From NCBI GenBank assembly GCA_904418845.1, contig CAJFQC010000007.1, positions 1-64,000 on the forward strand: 64,000 nucleotides of DNA. The letters run 5' to 3'. The number at the start of each line of letters is the position of its first letter. The stretch's first letter is position 1. The position numbers and the translations under genes were made by a program. The notes under the pieces are model-generated. The model made no database searches and was not told where the DNA came from. It worked only from the letters and a program-made list of their open reading frames with translations. Source of the stretch: an uncultured Ruminococcus sp. GTDB lineage: Bacteria > Bacillota > Clostridia > Lachnospirales > Lachnospiraceae. Positions 1-13,385 of this stretch are shown here, in pieces.

Positions 1-654
1 GTTGTCAATGACAGTGTGACAAGAGAAGCCCTTACCAGAAAGCAGGAACGGGCATTTCTGAAATTCGTAAAAGAGGATAAACACTTTTCCAGATACTATG
101 AAGGTATCTATATCCTTTTTAAGACAGGACTTCGGATTTCTGAATTTGTAGGGCTGACGATTGCGGATATTGACTTGAAAAACGGCGTTATCGACGTCAA
201 TCATCAGTTACAGAGGAAACGGAATATGGAGTATGTAATAGAGGAGACGAAAACCGAGTGCGGTACAAGGCTTGTACCCATGACAGACGAGGTGAAAAAG
301 TGTTTCCGCAAAATCATTGAGAACCGCAAAAAGCCAAAGACAGAACCCATGATAGACGGGAAAGTGGGCTTTTTGTATCTGGACAAAAATGATATGCCAA
401 TGGTTGCCCTGCACTGGGAAAAGTACTTCCAGCATATCTGTGAGAAATATAATAAAATATACAAAGCCGAAATGCCAAAGGTGACACCTCATGTCTGCCG
501 TCATACATTTTGCTCCAATATGGCAAAGTCGGGCATGAACCCTAAGACGTTGCAGAAGATTATGGGGCACTCGGATATCGGCGTGACGCTGAACACTTAT
601 ACGCATGTAGGCTTTGAAGACATTCAAAAAGAGATGAAAAAGATATGTAGTTAG
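1..654 (+). CDS. int: Tn916-family tyrosine integrase, C-terminal part (5' end outside window)
   Basis: The reading frame is open to the left edge, so this is the C-terminal part of a longer protein; a GTG at 16 is only an internal codon. The visible part is the catalytic domain of a tyrosine recombinase: TGLRISE carries the first catalytic Arg, HVCRHTF is the HxxR motif, GHS gives the second His and NTYTHV the nucleophilic Tyr. Sequence style and short C-terminus match Tn916-type integrases (about 400 residues), which cut and join element ends during integration and excision. In Tn916-like elements int is the last gene before one end, which fits the repeat-rich DNA that follows and the switch to chromosomal genes by 823. 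Confidence 0.9.
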   Translation, partial: VVNDSVTREALTRKQERAFLKFVKEDKHFSRYYEGIYILFKTGLRISEFVGLTIADIDLKNGVIDVNHQLQRKRNMEYVIEETKTECGTRLVPMTDEVKKCFRKIIENRKKPKTEPMIDGKVGFLYLDKNDMPMVALHWEKYFQHICEKYNKIYKAEMPKVTPHVCRHTFCSNMAKSGMNPKTLQKIMGHSDIGVTLNTYTHVGFEDIQKEMKKICS

Positions 655-5311: not shown

Positions 5312-5870
5312 GAAGCTGCAAAGCGCGATCGAGGCGATCCTTTTTACAATGGGCGATTCTGTTGAGTTGGATAAACTGGCCGCTGCGATCGGACATGACG
5401 TGGAAACGACGAAGAAGCTCATTCGCTCTATGATGGACCGATATGAAGAAAACGACCGCGGGATTAAACTCATAGAGCTTGACAATGCGTACCAGCTCTG
5501 TACGAAGAAAGAAATGTACGAGTATCTGATCCGCGTGGCAAAGCAGCCCAAACGGTATGTGCTCACGGACGTTCTTTTAGAGACACTGTCTATCATTGCA
5601 TATAAGCAGCCGGTGACAAAGCTGGAGATTGAGAAGATCCGGGGTGTGAAGACAGATCACGCGGTAAACAAGCTGGTGGAATACGGGCTTGTGGAGGAAG
5701 CGGGACGTCTGGACGCGCCCGGCAGACCGCTGCTTTTTGGCACGACGGAGGAATTCCTGCGCCGGTTCAGTGTCCATTCACTTGATGAACTTCCGGTGCT
5801 CGACCAGGAGCAGATCGCGCATTTTAAAGAGGAAGCAGAGGACGAGGCTCAGTTAAAGCTGGATATTTGA
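5301..5870 (+). CDS. scpB: Segregation and condensation protein B
   Basis: A 189-residue double winged-helix protein that dimerises and binds ScpA in the SMC complex. Start ATG 5301 (MEIEKLQSAIEAILF) lies inside the end of scpA, with a GGACTGGAG ribosome site upstream; an in-frame TTG at 5280 is less likely. The conserved QPKRYVLTDVLLETLSIIAYKQP region and GRPLLFGTTEEFL are typical of the family. A D,D-carboxypeptidase gene follows, as dacB follows scpB in Bacillus subtilis. Confidence 0.95.
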   Translation: MEIEKLQSAIEAILFTMGDSVELDKLAAAIGHDVETTKKLIRSMMDRYEENDRGIKLIELDNAYQLCTKKEMYEYLIRVAKQPKRYVLTDVLLETLSIIAYKQPVTKLEIEKIRGVKTDHAVNKLVEYGLVEEAGRLDAPGRPLLFGTTEEFLRRFSVHSLDELPVLDQEQIAHFKEEAEDEAQLKLDI

Positions 5871-5945
5871 CGGAAACATCAGATTATAATTTCTGAGAAA
5901 AACGCATAAAGTGTAGATGAGACAGTACCGTCAGAGGTGTCCTCT

Positions 5946-7208
5946 ATGATCAATAAGATAAAACTGAAGAAATGGAAACAGACAGCAGTTGTTCTGCTTT
6001 GTACGGCAGCCGTCACATTGTTTTTTTATTCTGTATACTGCCCGGGTTTTCCGGTGCAGGCAGAAACTGTGGAGAACGATCAGATAAAGCCGTCTGAGTT
6101 ATACGCCCAGTCAGCGGTCCTTATGGATGCGGAAACAGGGCGTATTTTATTTACCAAAAATGGACAGGAAGAGATGCCCATGGCGAGTACGACAAAGATC
6201 ATGACCTGTATCTTAGCATTGGAAAAAGGAAATCTGTCCGACCGCGTAGCTGTGAGCAGTGAAGCGTCTGCACAGCCGGCGGTGAAGCTTGGGATGCGCT
6301 CCGGACAGGAATTTTATCTGCGGGATCTTCTGTATTCTCTGATGCTGGAGTCCCACAACGATTCTGCAGTAGCGATCGCAGAGCATATCGGCGGCAGTGT
6401 GGAAGAATTTGCTGATATAATGAATGCAAAAGCAGAAGAACTGGGCTGCGAGGGGACGTATTTCATCACGCCGAACGGCCTTGACGCACAGGATGAGGAG
6501 GGGATTCATCACACCACGGCAAGCGATCTCGCGCAGATCATGAAATACTGCATCATGGACTCTGATAAAAAAGAGGAATTCCTTGAGATTACAAGGACGG
6601 AGAGCTATTCCTTTTCTGACTGCGCGGGGAGCGGGAATTATTCCTGCGTCAATCACAATACATTTCTGAAAATGATGGAAGGAGCTCTTTCCGGAAAAAC
6701 AGGATTTACGGCAGACGCAGGCTACTGCTATGTGGGTTCTCTCCGGGATGACGGCAGGACTTTTATCGTTGCGCTTCTTGCCTGCGGCTGGCCCAACAAT
6801 AAAAGCTATAAATGGGCGGATACTAAAAAACTGATGACATATGGTATCGAAAATTATTTTTATCAGGAGATCAGCCCGGAGCTTCCGGAGGATACGATAC
6901 AAGCAGCAGACGGGTTTATAGGAGGTTTTCCACAGAAGCAACCGGTGGAGGTAAAACTTAGGACCGGGGGCGGAGTACGCCGTCTGTTATTGTCCCGATC
7001 TGAGCAGATTGAGACAGAGACAGATATTCCCTCTGAGATATCAGCTCCGGTAGAGGCAGGAGAGAGGCTGGGAAATATTACTTACACAGTGGATGGAAAG
7101 ATTGTCGCGTATTATCCTGTCTTTGCTGCTGAAAGCATTGAGAAGCGAAGTTTTATGACGTGTCTTGAGTATGTGGCCGGTACATTTATGTTTCAGCTGT
7201 TCGCCTGA
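5946..7208 (+). CDS. D-alanyl-D-alanine carboxypeptidase (second copy)
   Basis: A 420-residue exported S11 family carboxypeptidase. It has a signal peptide or anchor (12-39, ending VQA), catalytic STTK (Ser81, Lys84), SHN (136-138) and SGKTG near 243. ATG 5946 is preferred over GTG 5937 because CAGAGG at 5932-5937 is correctly spaced only for the ATG. Position after scpB mirrors the dacB neighbourhood of Bacillus, where the enzyme acts on spore cortex, so a sporulation role is possible but not shown. The C-terminal domain is about 110 residues, ending in a hydrophobic stretch. Confidence 0.85.
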   Translation: MINKIKLKKWKQTAVVLLCTAAVTLFFYSVYCPGFPVQAETVENDQIKPSELYAQSAVLMDAETGRILFTKNGQEEMPMASTTKIMTCILALEKGNLSDRVAVSSEASAQPAVKLGMRSGQEFYLRDLLYSLMLESHNDSAVAIAEHIGGSVEEFADIMNAKAEELGCEGTYFITPNGLDAQDEEGIHHTTASDLAQIMKYCIMDSDKKEEFLEITRTESYSFSDCAGSGNYSCVNHNTFLKMMEGALSGKTGFTADAGYCYVGSLRDDGRTFIVALLACGWPNNKSYKWADTKKLMTYGIENYFYQEISPELPEDTIQAADGFIGGFPQKQPVEVKLRTGGGVRRLLLSRSEQIETETDIPSEISAPVEAGERLGNITYTVDGKIVAYYPVFAAESIEKRSFMTCLEYVAGTFMFQLFA

Positions 7209-7382
7209 CGGAAGCCCGGACGGTAAACGGTCATTTCGTTTTGAGCCAGAATGGATCGAATATTAAAATAAATCAATAAAAATGATTAAAATCACCACTG
7301 GTTATCGGAAACAACCTGTGTTAGTATAAGTGAGTATAAAATAAAGCAACTAAATTGATCAAATATAAGGAGATGTACAGAT

Positions 7383-9371
7383 ATGGAAAACTGGAAGAAA
7401 TACGAGAAGACTTATTTTATGCCTCCGGAGCCTTGCTATGACTGGGTGAAGAAAGACGCAATCGATAAAGCGCCGATCTGGTGCAGCGTGGATCTGCGCG
7501 ACGGCAACCAGGCGCTTATAGAGCCTATGAGTTTGGATGAAAAACTGGAGTTCTTCCAGCTCCTTGTGGACGTAGGATTTAAAGTGATCGAAGTAGGATT
7601 TCCTGCCGCGTCCGAGACAGAGTATCAGTTTTTGAGAACACTTATCGAGCAGAACATGATTCCGGATGATGTGACTATTCAGGTATTGACACAGGCAAGA
7701 GAACATATTATCAAGAGGACATTTGAGGCAGTAAAAGGCGCGCCGCATGCAATTATACATGTATACAATTCTACATCGGTGGCTCAGAGAGAGCAGGTGT
7801 TCCGCAAAAATAAGGAAGAGATCAAGCAAATCGCTGTGGATGGTGCAAAGCTTTTGAAAAGTCTGGCAAAGGAAACGAACGGCAACTTTACGTTCCAGTA
7901 CAGCCCGGAGAGTTTTCAGGGCACAGAGGTAGATTACGCCCTTGAAGTGTGCAATGCTGTGCTGGATATTTGGAAACCGACCGGGAAAAATAAGGCGATC
8001 ATCAATCTTCCGACAACGGTGGAGAATGCGATGCCGCATGTGTTTGCAAGCCAGGTGGAGTATTTCAACAAGCACCTGCTTCACAGGGAAAATGTGATCC
8101 TTTCCCTGCATCCGCATAATGACCGCGGCTCCGGCATCAGCGACGCGGAACTGGGTATCCTTGCAGGCGCGGACAGGATCGAGGGAACTCTTTTCGGAAA
8201 CGGCGAGCGTACAGGGAATGTGGATATCGTTACACTGGCCATGAATATGTTTTCTCAAGGTGTGAACCCGGAACTGGATTTTTCAAATATGAGTGACATC
8301 TGCGAAGTGTACGAGCGCGTGACCCGCATGCATGTGTCGCCGCGTCAGCCTTACGCGGGCGAGCTTGTGTTCACGGCGTTTTCGGGCTCTCATCAAGACG
8401 CCATCGCAAAAGGAATGGCATGGAGAGAAGAGAAAAAGTGCGGGAAATGGAGCGTGCCTTACCTTCCGATCGATCCGCAGGACGTGGGCAGAAGATACGA
8501 TTCAGATGTTATCCGCATCAACAGCCAGTCAGGCAAGGGAGGCGTAAATTATATCCTGAAGCAGAGCTTCGGCATCAGCCTTCCGGAGAAGATGAAAGAG
8601 GAAGTAGGATATCTTGTCAAAGATGTTTCTGACAAGGCGCACAAAGAGCTTACGCCAGACTGGGTATATCATATCTTCGAGGATAATTACATTAATGCGA
8701 AGCCGGTATTTACGGTGGATGAGTGTCACTTTAAGCAGGAGGACGGCATCATGGCGGAGGCGGCCCTCCATCACAACGGCAGCAACCGCAAGATCATGGG
8801 TGTCGGAAACGGACGTCTGGACGCAGTCAGCAATGCCATCAAGCATTACTTTGACGTCAGTTATGAACTGTCATTCTACGAAGAGCACTCCCTGACAAAA
8901 GGTTCCTCTTCAAGAGCCGTTGCCTATGTGGGGGTGGTGTGTAACAAGAAGCGCTACTGGGGCGTAGGCATTGACGCCGACATTATAAAAGCCTCCATCG
9001 AGGCTCTGGTCGTTGCAGTGAACAAGATCAAAGAAATTGCTGAGTCACAGGCGGGCAAGGATGAACGGCTTTTAGAGATCACCAACTATATCTATGCGAA
9101 TTATAAGGAAGTGACGCTGGATTCCCTGTCAGAGAAATTCTTCCTCTCCAAACCATATTTGTCAAAATATATCAAGGAGAAGTCAGGGATGACGTTCGGA
9201 GATATTTTAAAGAAGATCCGCATGAGGAAAGCGCGGGCCATGCTCAAAGGCAGCAGCGCGACGGTGGAAAGCATAGCGGAGTCGGTAGGATATCAGAACG
9301 TAGAGCACTTTAACAGAGTGTTTAAAAAGATGTATAATATGACTCCGGTGCAGTACCGGAACCGGAAGTAG
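7383..9371 (+). CDS. leuA: 2-isopropylmalate synthase with fused C-terminal AraC-type DNA-binding domain
   Basis: Residues 1 to about 410 are a type 2 LeuA TIM barrel: [11 protein letters not shown] with R39 and D40, HPHND (H243, H245, D247) for the metal, and [10 protein letters not shown] (272-281). It condenses acetyl-CoA with 2-oxoisovalerate, the first step of leucine synthesis. Residues about 425-545 resemble the LeuA leucine-binding dimer domain. Residues 561-662 (DNA 9063-9371) are an AraC double helix-turn-helix ending in the family signature [21 protein letters not shown]. The frame is continuous with no stop or second start signal. No other leucine gene is near and no T-box leader is seen. 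It may regulate DNA according to leucine; that is inference. Confidence 0.9.
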
Positions 9372-9401
9372 GAATCAGGTTTTGTCGAAATGATAGAATA
9401 T

Positions 9402-9437
9402 AACAGGCGGAGGACATATATCCTTCGCCTGTTTTTT
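9402..9437 (+). terminator. Rho-independent terminator after leuA-AraC
   Basis: AACAGGCGGAGGA pairs with TCCTTCGCCTGTT (one G-U pair) around CATATA, followed by a T6 tail. Confidence 0.85.
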
Positions 9438-9505
9438 CGGCCTTTGACAATAAAAAACGGAAAGGTTTATATGTGAAAAAAATGTCAATTCTCCCCATTT
9501 TTGAA

Positions 9506-9534
9506 TTGAAATTTCCATTATGTTGATATATACT
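9506..9534 (+). promoter_or_regulatory. Sigma-A promoter of the decarboxylase/transcarboxylase operon
   Basis: TTGAAA at 9506-9511, 17-bp spacer, TATACT at 9529-9534, about 60 bases before the carboxyltransferase start. Confidence 0.75.
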
Positions 9535-9593
9535 AAAATAGGCAGAAATTTTGGTTCTATTTAAACAAATTTATCAATATGGAGGGCTAGGAT

Positions 9594-11033
9594 ATGAGCT
9601 ACAATGCAACAGAAAACTCAGCAAGCAGACGAATTGCCATATTGCTTGATGAGGGCAGTTTTGTTGAGATCGGCGGTGCTGTTACTGCCAGAAGTACGGA
9701 TTTCAACCTGCAGGAAAAAGAAACTCCGTCTGACGGTGTTATCACCGGATACGGAGTGATCGACGGCAATCTTGTCTATGTATACAGCCAGGATGCGTCT
9801 GTTCTCAATGGGGCGATCGGAGAGATGCATGCGAAGAAGATCGCGAACATCTATGACATGGCGATGAAGATGGGCGCGCCGGTGATCGGACTGATCGACT
9901 GCGCAGGATTAAGACTTCAGGAAGCCACAGACGCACTGGAGGCGTTCGGAAGCCTGTACTACAAACAGAGTATGGCTTCAGGAGTGGTTCCGCAGATCGC
10001 GGCGGTCTTCGGTATGTGCGGCGGAGGACTTGCAGTAGTTCCCGGCCTGGCCGACTTTACATTTATGGAGGAGAAAGAAGGAAGGCTTTTCGTGAATTCT
10101 CCGAATGCTCTGGAGGGCAATGAGATCTCCAAATGCGACACTTCAAGCGCGCGGTATCAGAGCTCGACGGCAGGACTTGTAGACGGCATCGGCACAGAAG
10201 CTGATATCCTTGGACAGATCCGTTCTCTCGTATGTATGATCCCTGCCAACTATGAGGATGATCTTTCTTATGAGGAATGCACAGATGATCTGAACCGTGT
10301 ATGCGCAGATATCGCGAATGCGGCGGCAGATACATCCATTGTTCTTTCTCAGATCGCGGATGATCAGATTTTCTTTGAGATAAAGAAAGACTATGCAAAA
10401 GAGATGGTGACAGGATTTATCCGTCTCAATGGCATGACAGTGGGGACTGTGGCGAACCGCACAAAAGTCTACGGCGCGGACGGCGCAGAGGAAGCGGCTT
10501 ATGACTGCGCGCTCACAGTAGACGGATGTAAAAAAGCAATTGATTTTGTGAATTTCTGCGACGCTTTCTCCATTCCGGTGCTCACACTGACAAACGTGGC
10601 CGGATTCGCGGCTACAGTTGAGTCGGAGAAAAACATGGCAAGAGCAGTCGCAAGGATGACTTATACATTTGCAAATGCCACAGTTCCGAAAGTGAATGTG
10701 ATCGTAGGCAAGGCTTACGGAAGCGCATACATCGCGATGAACAGCAAGTCCATCGGTGCGGATATGGTTTACGCGTGGCCTGAAGCAGAGATTGGCATGA
10801 TGGAAGCAGACCTTGCGGCAAAGATTATGTATGCGGACAAGGACGCTGATACTCTGAGAGAAAAAGCGGCAGAGTACAAAGAACTGCAGTCAAGCCCGAT
10901 GTCAGCGGCCAGAAGAGGATATGTGGATACCATTATCCAACCTGCTGACACAAGAAAATATGTGATCGGCGCTTTTGAGATGCTGTTCACAAAGAGAGAG
11001 GATCGGCCGGACAAGAAACACGGCACGGTTTAG
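9594..11033 (+). CDS. mmdA: Acyl-CoA carboxyltransferase subunit (MmdA / transcarboxylase 12S type)
   Basis: A 479-residue crotonase-fold carboxyltransferase. The N-half has a glycine-rich FGMCGGGLAVVPGLADF acyl-CoA pocket and the C-half a VNVIVGKAYGSAYIAMNSK carboxybiotin-side motif. The family moves CO2 between biotin and methylmalonyl-CoA/propionyl-CoA or related acyl-CoAs. It is slightly short for the family (usually 510-530). It heads an operon with gamma, biotin-carrier, beta and OadA-type subunits. The acyl-CoA substrate is not provable from sequence; methylmalonyl-CoA is the most likely. GGAGGG precedes the ATG. Confidence 0.85.
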   Translation: MSYNATENSASRRIAILLDEGSFVEIGGAVTARSTDFNLQEKETPSDGVITGYGVIDGNLVYVYSQDASVLNGAIGEMHAKKIANIYDMAMKMGAPVIGLIDCAGLRLQEATDALEAFGSLYYKQSMASGVVPQIAAVFGMCGGGLAVVPGLADFTFMEEKEGRLFVNSPNALEGNEISKCDTSSARYQSSTAGLVDGIGTEADILGQIRSLVCMIPANYEDDLSYEECTDDLNRVCADIANAAADTSIVLSQIADDQIFFEIKKDYAKEMVTGFIRLNGMTVGTVANRTKVYGADGAEEAAYDCALTVDGCKKAIDFVNFCDAFSIPVLTLTNVAGFAATVESEKNMARAVARMTYTFANATVPKVNVIVGKAYGSAYIAMNSKSIGADMVYAWPEAEIGMMEADLAAKIMYADKDADTLREKAAEYKELQSSPMSAARRGYVDTIIQPADTRKYVIGAFEMLFTKREDRPDKKHGTV

Positions 11034-11047
11034 TGAGGTGAGGCGAA

Positions 11048-11818
11048 GTGAAGAAAAAAATCAGTTTAATAGGACTTGCCTTCATCCTTGTTCTTGGTTT
11101 TACAGGGTGCAGCAAGTCCGACACGACAGAATATGATCAGGCGGCGATGGAACAGTACGCGGATTTTATTGTCCAGAACTTCAGCGCGATGTCTGAAACT
11201 GACTTTGAGAACTTTCCAGGTATGTCTGAGTTGGAGTTAGATCTGACTCTGCTCAATGCCGGCGTTCCGATTTCGGGAGAAAATTTCCTGACAATGATCG
11301 ACGCATGGAATGCGGGAGTAGACGAGTGCGGTGCGTTTGTCAGTATCGGGGAATACACGATGGAGACGTCAAATGACGGAGCGACGCTCAGCGCGGAAGC
11401 GGATTTTGAAGAAAAAGACGGCACGATCGAATTTGCTTTTGATGAAGGCATGAATATGGAGAGTATCACGATATCCGCTCATTATACAACGGGAGAGATC
11501 CTTGAGAAAGCGGCACTGAATACGATTCTCGGTATGGGAACCGTGTTTGTGGTACTGATCTTTATTTGCTTTATCATCTCGCTGTTTAAGCTGATTCCTG
11601 TTATTGAGAAGAAATTTAAGAAGAGTCCCAAGGCAGAAACAGCCGCAGCGTCTGCGCCCGCAGCACCGGTTCCGGCATCTGCCGCAGCAGTTGACGGGTC
11701 AGATGACGGCGAGCTTGCGGCAGTGATCGCAGCGGCGGTCGCAGCGGCAGAGGGCACGTCTGCAGATGGATTTATCGTACGTTCGATCAAGAGAAGAAAA
11801 TCAAATAAATGGAATTGA
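11048..11818 (+). CDS. Lipoprotein-type gamma subunit (OadG-like) of sodium-pumping decarboxylase
   Basis: GTG start at 11048 after GAGGTGAGG. Residues 1-21 form a lipoprotein signal with lipobox LGFTGC (Cys21). An extracytoplasmic domain of about 130 residues follows; it resembles small folded domains attached to clostridial lipoproteins. One membrane helix (159-183, GMGTVFVVLIFICFIISLFKL) matches OadG. It is followed by an Ala/Pro linker and the OadG-like tail LAAVIAAAVAAAEG...FIVRSIKRR. OadG normally has about 85-100 residues and no outer domain, so this is an enlarged form. It would anchor the carboxyltransferase and biotin carrier to the membrane beta subunit. Confidence 0.75.
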   Translation: MKKKISLIGLAFILVLGFTGCSKSDTTEYDQAAMEQYADFIVQNFSAMSETDFENFPGMSELELDLTLLNAGVPISGENFLTMIDAWNAGVDECGAFVSIGEYTMETSNDGATLSAEADFEEKDGTIEFAFDEGMNMESITISAHYTTGEILEKAALNTILGMGTVFVVLIFICFIISLFKLIPVIEKKFKKSPKAETAAASAPAAPVPASAAAVDGSDDGELAAVIAAAVAAAEGTSADGFIVRSIKRRKSNKWN

Positions 11819-11834
11819 TTAGGAGGATCATGAA

Positions 11835-12209
11835 ATGAAAAATTATACGATTACAGTAAACGGAAATGTGTATGATGTGACAGTAGAGGAGAAAGGAGCG
11901 GGCGCGGCGCCTGCGGCAGCGCCGAAAGCGACTCCGGCGGCAGCACCCAAAGCGGCTCCGGCACCGGCAGCAGCTCCGAAGGCTGCAGGCTCAGGCAAGA
12001 TCCAGGTGAAGGCAGGCGCGGCAGGAAAAGTATTCCAGATTCCGACCACCGTTGGACAGAGCGTTCAGCCGGGGGATGCGGTTGTCATCATCGAGGCCAT
12101 GAAGATGGAGATCCCGGTTGTGGCTCCTGAGGCAGGAACGATCGCCAGCATTGACGTGGCAGTAGGCGACGCTGTAGAGGCAGGAGCAGTGCTTGCCACA
12201 TTAAACTAG
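11835..12209 (+). CDS. Biotin carboxyl carrier protein
   Basis: A 124-residue carrier. The N-terminal 20 residues form a short beta segment, residues about 22-52 are an Ala/Pro/Lys hinge, and residues 55-124 are a biotinyl domain with EAMKMEI, where Lys90 takes biotin. It shuttles carboxyl groups between carboxyltransferase active sites and the beta-subunit pump. AGGAGG precedes the ATG. As the only biotin carrier in the operon it is presumably shared by both carboxyltransferases. Confidence 0.95.
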   Translation: MKNYTITVNGNVYDVTVEEKGAGAAPAAAPKATPAAAPKAAPAPAAAPKAAGSGKIQVKAGAAGKVFQIPTTVGQSVQPGDAVVIIEAMKMEIPVVAPEAGTIASIDVAVGDAVEAGAVLATLN

Positions 12210-12233
12210 TTACCAACCTAGGAGGTCTTACAA

Positions 12234-13385
12234 ATGGAATATATTTCAACAACATTGGGGAACCTCGTAGAACAGACCGCTTTCATGAACCTTACATGGG
12301 GAAACCTGATCATGATCGGTGTTGCCTGCGTATTCCTCTATCTGGCGATAAGACACGGCTTTGAGCCGCTTTTGCTCGTCCCCATTGCCTTCGGTATGCT
12401 TCTTGTCAATATCTATCCGGATATCATGATCCATCCTGAAGACGCATCCAACGGGACAGGCGGGCTTTTGTATTATTTCTATTTACTTGACGAATGGTCT
12501 ATCCTTCCGTCGCTGATCTTTCTCGGTGTCGGCGCGATGACAGACTTCGGGCCGCTGATCGCTAATCCGAAGAGCTTCCTTCTCGGAGCGGCGGCACAGT
12601 TTGGTATCTTTGCCGCTTATTTAGGCGCGATGGGAATGGGATTCTCAGACAAGGCTGCCGCGGCGATCTCTATCATCGGCGGAGCTGACGGCCCGACATC
12701 TATCTTCCTGGCCGGTAAGCTTCAGCAGACAGCGATCTTAGGTCCGATCGCGGTGGCGGCGTACTCGTATATGTCGCTCGTGCCGATTATCCAGCCGCCG
12801 ATCATGAAACTGCTCACGACAGAGAAAGAGCGTAAGATCAAGATGGAGCAGCTTCGTCCGGTGTCCAAGCTGGAGAGGATTCTCTTCCCGATCATTGTCA
12901 CAATCGTTGTCTGCGTGATTCTTCCGACGACAGCTCCGCTTGTCGGTATGCTCATGCTCGGAAATCTGTTCAAAGAGTCCGGCGTGGTAAGACAGCTTAC
13001 AGATACAGCATCTAACGCCCTGATGTATATCGTAGTTATTCTGCTTGGGACATCCGTAGGCGCTACGACAAGCGCAGAGGCGTTCCTGAATATGGATACA
13101 ATAAAGATTGTTATCCTCGGACTGATCGCATTTGCGTTCGGTACAGCCGCAGGCGTTCTCTTTGGAAAGCTTATGTGCTGGGCGACAAAGGGCAAGGTAA
13201 ATCCATTGATCGGTTCCGCAGGCGTATCCGCCGTGCCTATGGCGGCACGCGTATCCCAGAAGGTGGGAGCAGAGGCAGATCCAACCAACTTCCTGCTCAT
13301 GCATGCCATGGGCCCGAATGTGGCGGGAGTTATCGGTACGGCAGTAGTAGCGGGAACATTTATGGCTATCTTTGGTGTTAAGTAA
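12234..13385 (+). CDS. oadB: Sodium-transporting decarboxylase beta subunit (OadB/MmdB/GcdB)
   Basis: A 383-residue polytopic membrane protein with around nine to eleven hydrophobic segments. It contains the family signature IGGADGPTSIFLAGKL, the NPLIGSAGVSAVPMAARVSQ segment and the closing HAMGPNVAGVIGTA. The subunit decarboxylates carboxybiotin and pumps Na+ outward. The preceding ribosome site is AGGAGG. OadB, MmdB and GcdB cannot be told apart by sequence alone; the neighbours argue for a methylmalonyl-CoA and/or oxaloacetate system. Confidence 0.93.
   Translation: MEYISTTLGNLVEQTAFMNLTWGNLIMIGVACVFLYLAIRHGFEPLLLVPIAFGMLLVNIYPDIMIHPEDASNGTGGLLYYFYLLDEWSILPSLIFLGVGAMTDFGPLIANPKSFLLGAAAQFGIFAAYLGAMGMGFSDKAAAAISIIGGADGPTSIFLAGKLQQTAILGPIAVAAYSYMSLVPIIQPPIMKLLTTEKERKIKMEQLRPVSKLERILFPIIVTIVVCVILPTTAPLVGMLMLGNLFKESGVVRQLTDTASNALMYIVVILLGTSVGATTSAEAFLNMDTIKIVILGLIAFAFGTAAGVLFGKLMCWATKGKVNPLIGSAGVSAVPMAARVSQKVGAEADPTNFLLMHAMGPNVAGVIGTAVVAGTFMAIFGVK

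Follow-up and report, generated by a model that had tools for sequence, protein, structure and literature searches.

We identified a 2-isopropylmalate synthase (LeuA) that continues in one chain into an AraC-type double helix-turn-helix (HTH) domain, encoded in a 64,000-nucleotide stretch of DNA that we analysed as a whole and call the window. Comparison across genomes argues, at a probability of roughly 70%, that this LeuA-HTH protein is both the enzyme and a dedicated transcription factor of its own gene, most likely an activating one and probably switched by leucine. The original prediction that a single chain could join enzyme, sensor and regulator fits the comparative evidence on the spread of the fusion, the conservation of the HTH and the way that an upstream DNA element follows the HTH. 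If true, LeuA-HTH would form a single-protein, single-gene feedback circuit in which one leucine site sets both the amount and the activity of LeuA, and would allow the replacement of RNA-based by protein-based regulation to be traced, with intermediates that carry both the element and a T-box persisting in living genomes. Split and decayed versions of the protein would provide natural controls, the carriers are common gut bacteria of which some are known from isolates, and LeuA-HTH is a candidate leucine sensor for bioengineering.

An intact LeuA fused to an AraC-type domain

The leuA-HTH gene is a single open frame with no frameshift (Table 1). All three LeuA domains score above their family cut-offs, and the NCBIfam LeuA model NF002991 covers residues 5–548 with 806 bits against a cut-off of 455. 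Residues R39, D40, H243, H245 and N279 are invariant across 60 aligned LeuA proteins, and we take these R-D, H-x-H and N positions to be the catalytic and metal residues; G475, N476, G477 and E501 of the LeuA_dimer domain are invariant in the LeuA alignment as well, and from family knowledge this domain is presumably the leucine site. The complete type 2 LeuA claimed from the letters alone is borne out by these intact domains and invariant residues. LeuA-HTH is the sole LeuA_dimer match in its own 2.4-Mb genome, which also encodes leuB, leuC, leuD, ilvC and ilvD, and LeuA-HTH should therefore be a working enzyme with predicted 2-isopropylmalate synthase activity.

The C-terminal part matches HTH_18 at residues 582–661 (76.3 bits, cut-off 33.6) and HTH_AraC at residues 624–660, in the same frame as LeuA, and the proposed unbroken passage from LeuA into a full AraC double HTH holds. 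Structure prediction, suggested as a check of the fusion, places a short linker at residues 550–560 ahead of a seven-helix AraC-type domain at residues 561–660 with block pLDDT values of 79–90 (mean pLDDT 81.9, pTM 0.61). The LeuA part matches Mycobacterium tuberculosis LeuA by sequence (1sr9, E = 5.8e-155) and 3hps/1sr9 by fold, and the HTH part matches chains of YesN (3lsg), SoxS (7w5w), MarA (1bl0) and AraC (2k9s).

Table 1. Features of the leuA-HTH locus in the window
Feature	Position	Strand	Basis or detail
Conserved upstream element (box 1)	7264–7301	+	conserved block, scans; core ATCAATAAAAATGATTAA at 7272–7289, plus CCACTGG at 7295–7301
Extended -10 TGTGTTAGTATA	7317–7328	+	hexamer 7322–7327
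Box 2 CAACTAAATTGAT	7347–7359	+	73 bp (~7 helical turns) past the corresponding point in box 1
Ribosome-binding site AAGGAG	7367–7372	+	sequence
leuA-HTH gene	7383–9371	+	one open frame, ATG start, 662 aa
Catalytic HMGL-like domain, residues 31–307	7473–8303	+	Pfam, 239 bits
IPMS_D2 post-catalytic domain, residues 327–393	8361–8561	+	Pfam
LeuA_dimer regulatory domain, residues 422–549	8646–9029	+	Pfam, 87 bits
Linker, ~residues 550–560	9030–9062	+	predicted structure, HTH-less relatives, split relatives
AraC-type double HTH, residues 561–662	9063–9368	+	Pfam, structure model, chain matches
Predicted recognition helices of the AraC-type HTH, residues 590–601 and 640–651			

Of the 299 genomes of the window's family covered by the domain search proposed for Lachnospiraceae, at least 68 carry the fusion uninterrupted to residues 659–662, with identities as low as 63%; a further row (G163), where the family match ends at residue 583, was not counted as fused. 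A class-level search returned the fusion in 13 of 391 genomes, of which six had also come up at family level and three belong to two other families, where the proteins read through to 660 and 661 residues (L284 and L285, family f14) and 665 residues (L289, family f73). Carriers include single-contig assemblies and isolate genomes, the isolates including [Ruminococcus] torques ATCC 27756, Faecalicatena orotica, Muricomes intestini, Hespellia stercorisuis and Schaedlerella arabinosiphila, and the window's protein is 97% identical to its match in a Candidatus Mediterraneibacter pullicola MAG, a relationship that places the window in Mediterraneibacter or close to it, within Lachnospiraceae. The fusion is no local accident. 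Orthologues with a stop near position 9063 had been named as evidence against a regulator, and such proteins do exist, since other relatives end at about residue 550 without the HTH, but the 28 that could be assessed also lack the upstream element described below.

Comparison of the window's leuA-HTH with 46 relatives of at least 85% identity gives a median dN of 0.047 for the HTH versus 0.045 and 0.046 for two parts of the enzyme, and 0.059 for the linker; dN alone was used because dS is saturated at about 2. By this measure HTH and enzyme change at the same slow pace. On a tree of the LeuA part only, the HTH-bearing rows need nine state changes, and a single clade of HTH-bearing rows remains compatible with the data (AU p = 0.106).

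A conserved upstream element that accompanies the HTH

A conserved block with non-conserved flanks lies upstream of most fused leuA genes among 66 loci from named genomes. It takes the form ATCAA-N6-TGATTAA followed by CACT, 45 nt ahead of an extended -10 (consensus TRTGnTAnnAT at these 66 loci), with ATCAA-N6-TGATTAA typically at -111 and a second box, consensus CAAnnnnnTTGAT, at -36. ATCA recurs 22 bp on in the element consensus (ATCAA...ATCAC), and direct repeats are the kind of site that AraC proteins bind. The TGATT/AATCA inverted repeat at 7283–7294 that was put forward as an operator exists, but it is just a fragment of the longer element in Table 1; conservation among close relatives does not extend to its right half, 7290–7294, where most of them carry TTTTG or similar.

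We measured spacings at 94 loci, a set weighted to the window's genus. The distance from box 1 to the extended -10 is exactly 45 nt at 88 of them, and the window has this spacing too, counted from the first base of the box 1 core. Box 2 sits between the presumed transcription start and the ribosome-binding site, and its distance from box 1 is 73 bp at 59 loci, 74 at 14, 72 at two, 70 at one and 63 at two, which places 75 of the 78 loci having both boxes at 72–74 bp; the 63-bp spacing (L064 and L117) is one helical turn shorter. Box 1 is present and box 2 absent at the remaining 16 loci, and box 2 at near-fixed spacing belongs to the window's subclade. We found no good -35 hexamer at 16–18 nt from the -10 in the window and none better than 4 of 6 at that distance at any of the 94 loci, 18 of which reach 4 of 6; the best match averages 2.96 of 6 versus a background of 2.52, and because this is slightly above background a weak -35 may be present. 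The lack of a clear -35 suggests dependence on an activator. A sigma-70 scan gave 12 matches against 3.6 expected, none at the conserved -10.

Scanning 1 kb upstream of leuA at a threshold of 15.8, which none of 970 shuffles approached (maximum 9.7), we detected the element at 55 of 69 HTH-bearing loci and at 0 of 28 HTH-less loci (Fisher p = 2.9e-14, computed over rows that share ancestry and are not independent). The HTH-bearing loci are 67 fused and two split genes; the scan drew on 67 of the 68 fused family rows (G042 left out) plus L289, and on 29 HTH-less loci from the upper part of the HTH-less family rows, some of which were skipped, with L124 and L187 dropped before counting because they lie at a contig edge. 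The matrix was trained on HTH-bearing loci, and a jackknife and a separate training set agree with it: a matrix built from 39 loci within the set L002–L040 alone recovers the element at 49 of 68 further HTH-bearing loci and at none of the 28 without an HTH, although this training set overlaps the test set by at least one row because L038 and L109 are probably the same contig. When ties are broken at random, 42 of the 49 loci have an extended -10 exactly 45 nt further on, compared with 5 of 340 controls. Among the named genomes, 65 of 66 fused loci carry the element within 350 bp, and at the sixty-sixth (L060) it lies at -403 and precedes a T-box; this set comprises 66 of 68 fused loci, L053 and L062 having been left out for short upstream sequence, although L062 later entered the trees.

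Exceptional loci are informative in both directions. The element is kept at L158 and L161, where the HTH lies in a separate frame just behind leuA. L303 retains the fused length but departs from the conserved HTH at 12 of 35 positions, including eight within the recognition helices, and no element was found in its 1 kb upstream. L159 has no HTH and no element was found upstream of it; it nests inside the fused clade on a long branch, in a tree that contains two mistranslated rows (L284 and L285). Many recognition-helix positions are kept in 90% or more of the element-bearing rows. Fourteen of the 69 HTH-bearing loci fall below the element threshold, eight of them scoring 5.6–11.5 and only L152 and L306 exceeding every shuffle, and several of the fourteen keep the HTH well (L143, L151 and L295). 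The tree offers four supported independent contrasts, of which on average 2.5 agree with the association and none oppose it, and with only four the phylogenetic test cannot reach significance. Taken across genera, the element appears to track the HTH. As a separate observation, L151, L135, L149, L154 and L295 have a largely kept HTH and no recognisable element, and may show how the site sequence diverged.

Whole-genome scans of 17 of the 23 HTH-bearing genomes found the exact element at 22 places, 17 of them at leuA, which holds the only exact copy in 13 of the 17; 16 HTH-less genomes gave 13 places, none at leuA. The scan also took in G006, a genome without a leuA match. The other exact site in the window's own genome, between rpsO-like and pnp-like genes whose identities were read from translations, is a palindrome behind a terminator-like hairpin. 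The original prediction expected effects on ilv and leu genes, and in the loci scanned we found no element near them: the best score near ilvD, LeuC/aconitase and ilvC was 6.8 (89 loci among the matches listed, from 26 genomes of which 23 are HTH-bearing, part of the LeuC/aconitase matches being aconitases), and no element lies near the genome's own leuCD or near leuB in five genomes. This target scan covers ilvC, ilvD, leuB and leuC/leuD and reaches about 1.5 kb beside each match, so that an operon promoter lying further away could have escaped it. The element appears to be specific to leuA, and a conserved site in front of the enzyme's own gene suggests that the enzyme controls its own production.

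T-box leaders, proposed mechanism and alternatives

HTH-less relatives commonly carry a different leuA control. T-box leaders precede 22 of 28 assessed HTH-less leuA genes (21 by Rfam, L168 by core motif only) and 11 of 67 assessed fused genes (L303 by core motif only). All six leaders displayed, two from HTH-less and four from fused genes, have a leucine specifier, either CUC or CUG. An Rfam search of window positions 5500–12500 found no T-box and nothing near gathering score. T-boxes before leuA are reported in Geobacter and Pelobacter in the available text of PMC2494555. The element lies upstream of the T-box at 9 of the 11 fused T-box loci, 415–823 nt before the start codon, with the extended -10 at 45 nt in eight of the nine; the two without it are L303, with its decayed HTH, and L306 (score 11.5). 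An apparent mutual exclusivity of element and T-box, with no co-occurrences, arose because an element scan had covered only 350 bp upstream, and the whole-upstream scan that finds both together rules it out. The likely order of events is a T-box, then element plus T-box, then the element alone.

Within the LeuA family, leucine binding in the regulatory domain inhibits catalysis, and LeuA dimerises through the same domain. We propose that the C-terminal AraC-type domain would bind box 1, about 53 bp before the presumed transcription start, and that the leucine-free form bound there would activate leuA when leucine is scarce; because box 1 adjoins a good extended -10 without a clear -35, binding would most likely activate. 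Leucine in the regulatory domain would alter the arrangement of the dimer and end activation, and in the window's subclade a repressing loop or a roadblock could form through box 2, which lies seven turns downstream. The fused clade probably acquired this system upstream of a T-box leader, and that leader would then have been mostly lost. The full scheme, in which one allosteric leucine site is used twice, activating and looped states alternate and the T-box is overlaid and then displaced, is more tentative than the core reading, and we put it slightly below even odds.

The arrangement of sites could also be read as that of a plain autorepressor acting at box 1 and box 2 with leucine as co-repressor and no need for activation, which we consider unlikely. 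Box 1 is the general part of the arrangement and, by the position rule for class II activators, is placed as their sites are; no -35 of 5 of 6 or better occurs among the 94 loci, and box 1 stands without box 2 at 16 of them. The placement of box 2 between presumed start and ribosome-binding site at a near-fixed 73 bp in the window's subclade would suit repression, as would the precedents of PutA, an autogenous repressor (available text of PMC5293562), and BirA, a repressor (available text of PMC4016012 and PMC6391492). Somewhat less likely again is an HTH domain that senses a signal other than leucine, such as the substrates 2-ketoisovalerate and acetyl-CoA or the product at the catalytic site: in its favour, fused proteins have an intact catalytic domain that is no less conserved, but the HTH follows directly on the regulatory domain, and the T-box it seemingly replaced reads leucine charging through CUC or CUG in the six leaders displayed.

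We regard as quite improbable that an unrelated regulator binds the element and that the HTH is an inert or structural tail sharing its ancestry. Shared descent could produce the co-occurrence, since a single HTH clade is compatible with the LeuA tree (AU p = 0.106), and the small number of supported contrasts, four, and the genes with a well-kept HTH and no recognisable element leave room for it; against this, the HTH is conserved like the enzyme with many of its recognition-helix positions kept, the element is missing from L159, which lost its HTH, and from L303, whose HTH has decayed, and leuA holds the only exact copy in 13 of 17 genomes. Linker breaks at L055, L158 and L161 could hint that two genes were read as one through a sequencing or gene-calling artefact, a reading ruled out by the unbroken frame that at least 68 of 299 genomes share, single-contig assemblies among them, and that isolates show as well.

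Relation to known systems and neighbouring loci

M. tuberculosis LeuA (1sr9/3fig) shares the domains, catalytic residues and regulatory domain of LeuA-HTH (46% identity in the fold match) but has no C-terminal AraC double HTH, and the best LeuA chain aligns to the LeuA part only. AraC/XylS proteins likewise carry a complete seven-helix DNA-binding domain at the C-terminus, and AraC, as here, uses a site beside the -10 plus a second distant site, a comparison based on its sites I1, I2 and O2; whereas that family has a small sensor domain, the effector and dimer part here is a complete biosynthetic enzyme. PutA (trifunctional; PMC5293562) and BirA (group II biotin protein ligase; PMC4016012, PMC6391492) are, in the available text of these sources, enzymes with a fused DNA-binding domain controlling genes of their own pathway and resemble LeuA-HTH in joining an enzyme and a DNA-binding domain in one chain. 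LeuA-HTH differs in its enzyme, in its DNA-binding domain and in the C-terminal rather than N-terminal position of that domain, and its target is apparently its own gene alone, where it is probably an activator. The leuA T-box leader controls the same gene in HTH-less relatives, but it is an RNA that reads tRNA charging, and here a protein element precedes or replaces it. Searches of the open literature, judged by titles and abstracts and with subscription journals mostly outside, gave no description of a LeuA-HTH or LeuA-AraC fusion.

Several loci depart from the standard gene. L161 changes frame between LeuA and HTH near residue 558, directly after a run of eight A; either slippage that yields both forms or a split gene could account for this. 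LeuA stops near residue 553 at L158 and the HTH resumes at once in another frame, with the element kept. L055, a Mediterraneibacter MAG, has a linker break at about residue 560 in an otherwise fused gene, either an assembly error or a real split. Both recognition helices are changed in L303 (genome G240, residues ~579–659), where a T-box core is present below the Rfam cut-off, in apparent decay of the regulator part.

Upstream of leuA-HTH in the window lie scpA, scpB and a D-Ala-D-Ala carboxypeptidase gene, names read from translations as for the other neighbours. Positions 9594–13385 hold a sodium-pump decarboxylase-like operon (carboxyltransferase, small OadG-like subunit, biotin carrier and membrane beta subunit) with its own spacer. 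At G000:C18 (L287), a second LeuC/LeuD-like pair has CoA-transferase-like, HMGL-like and PrpF-like neighbours; judging from names read from translations, this may be a catabolic pathway for branched acids.
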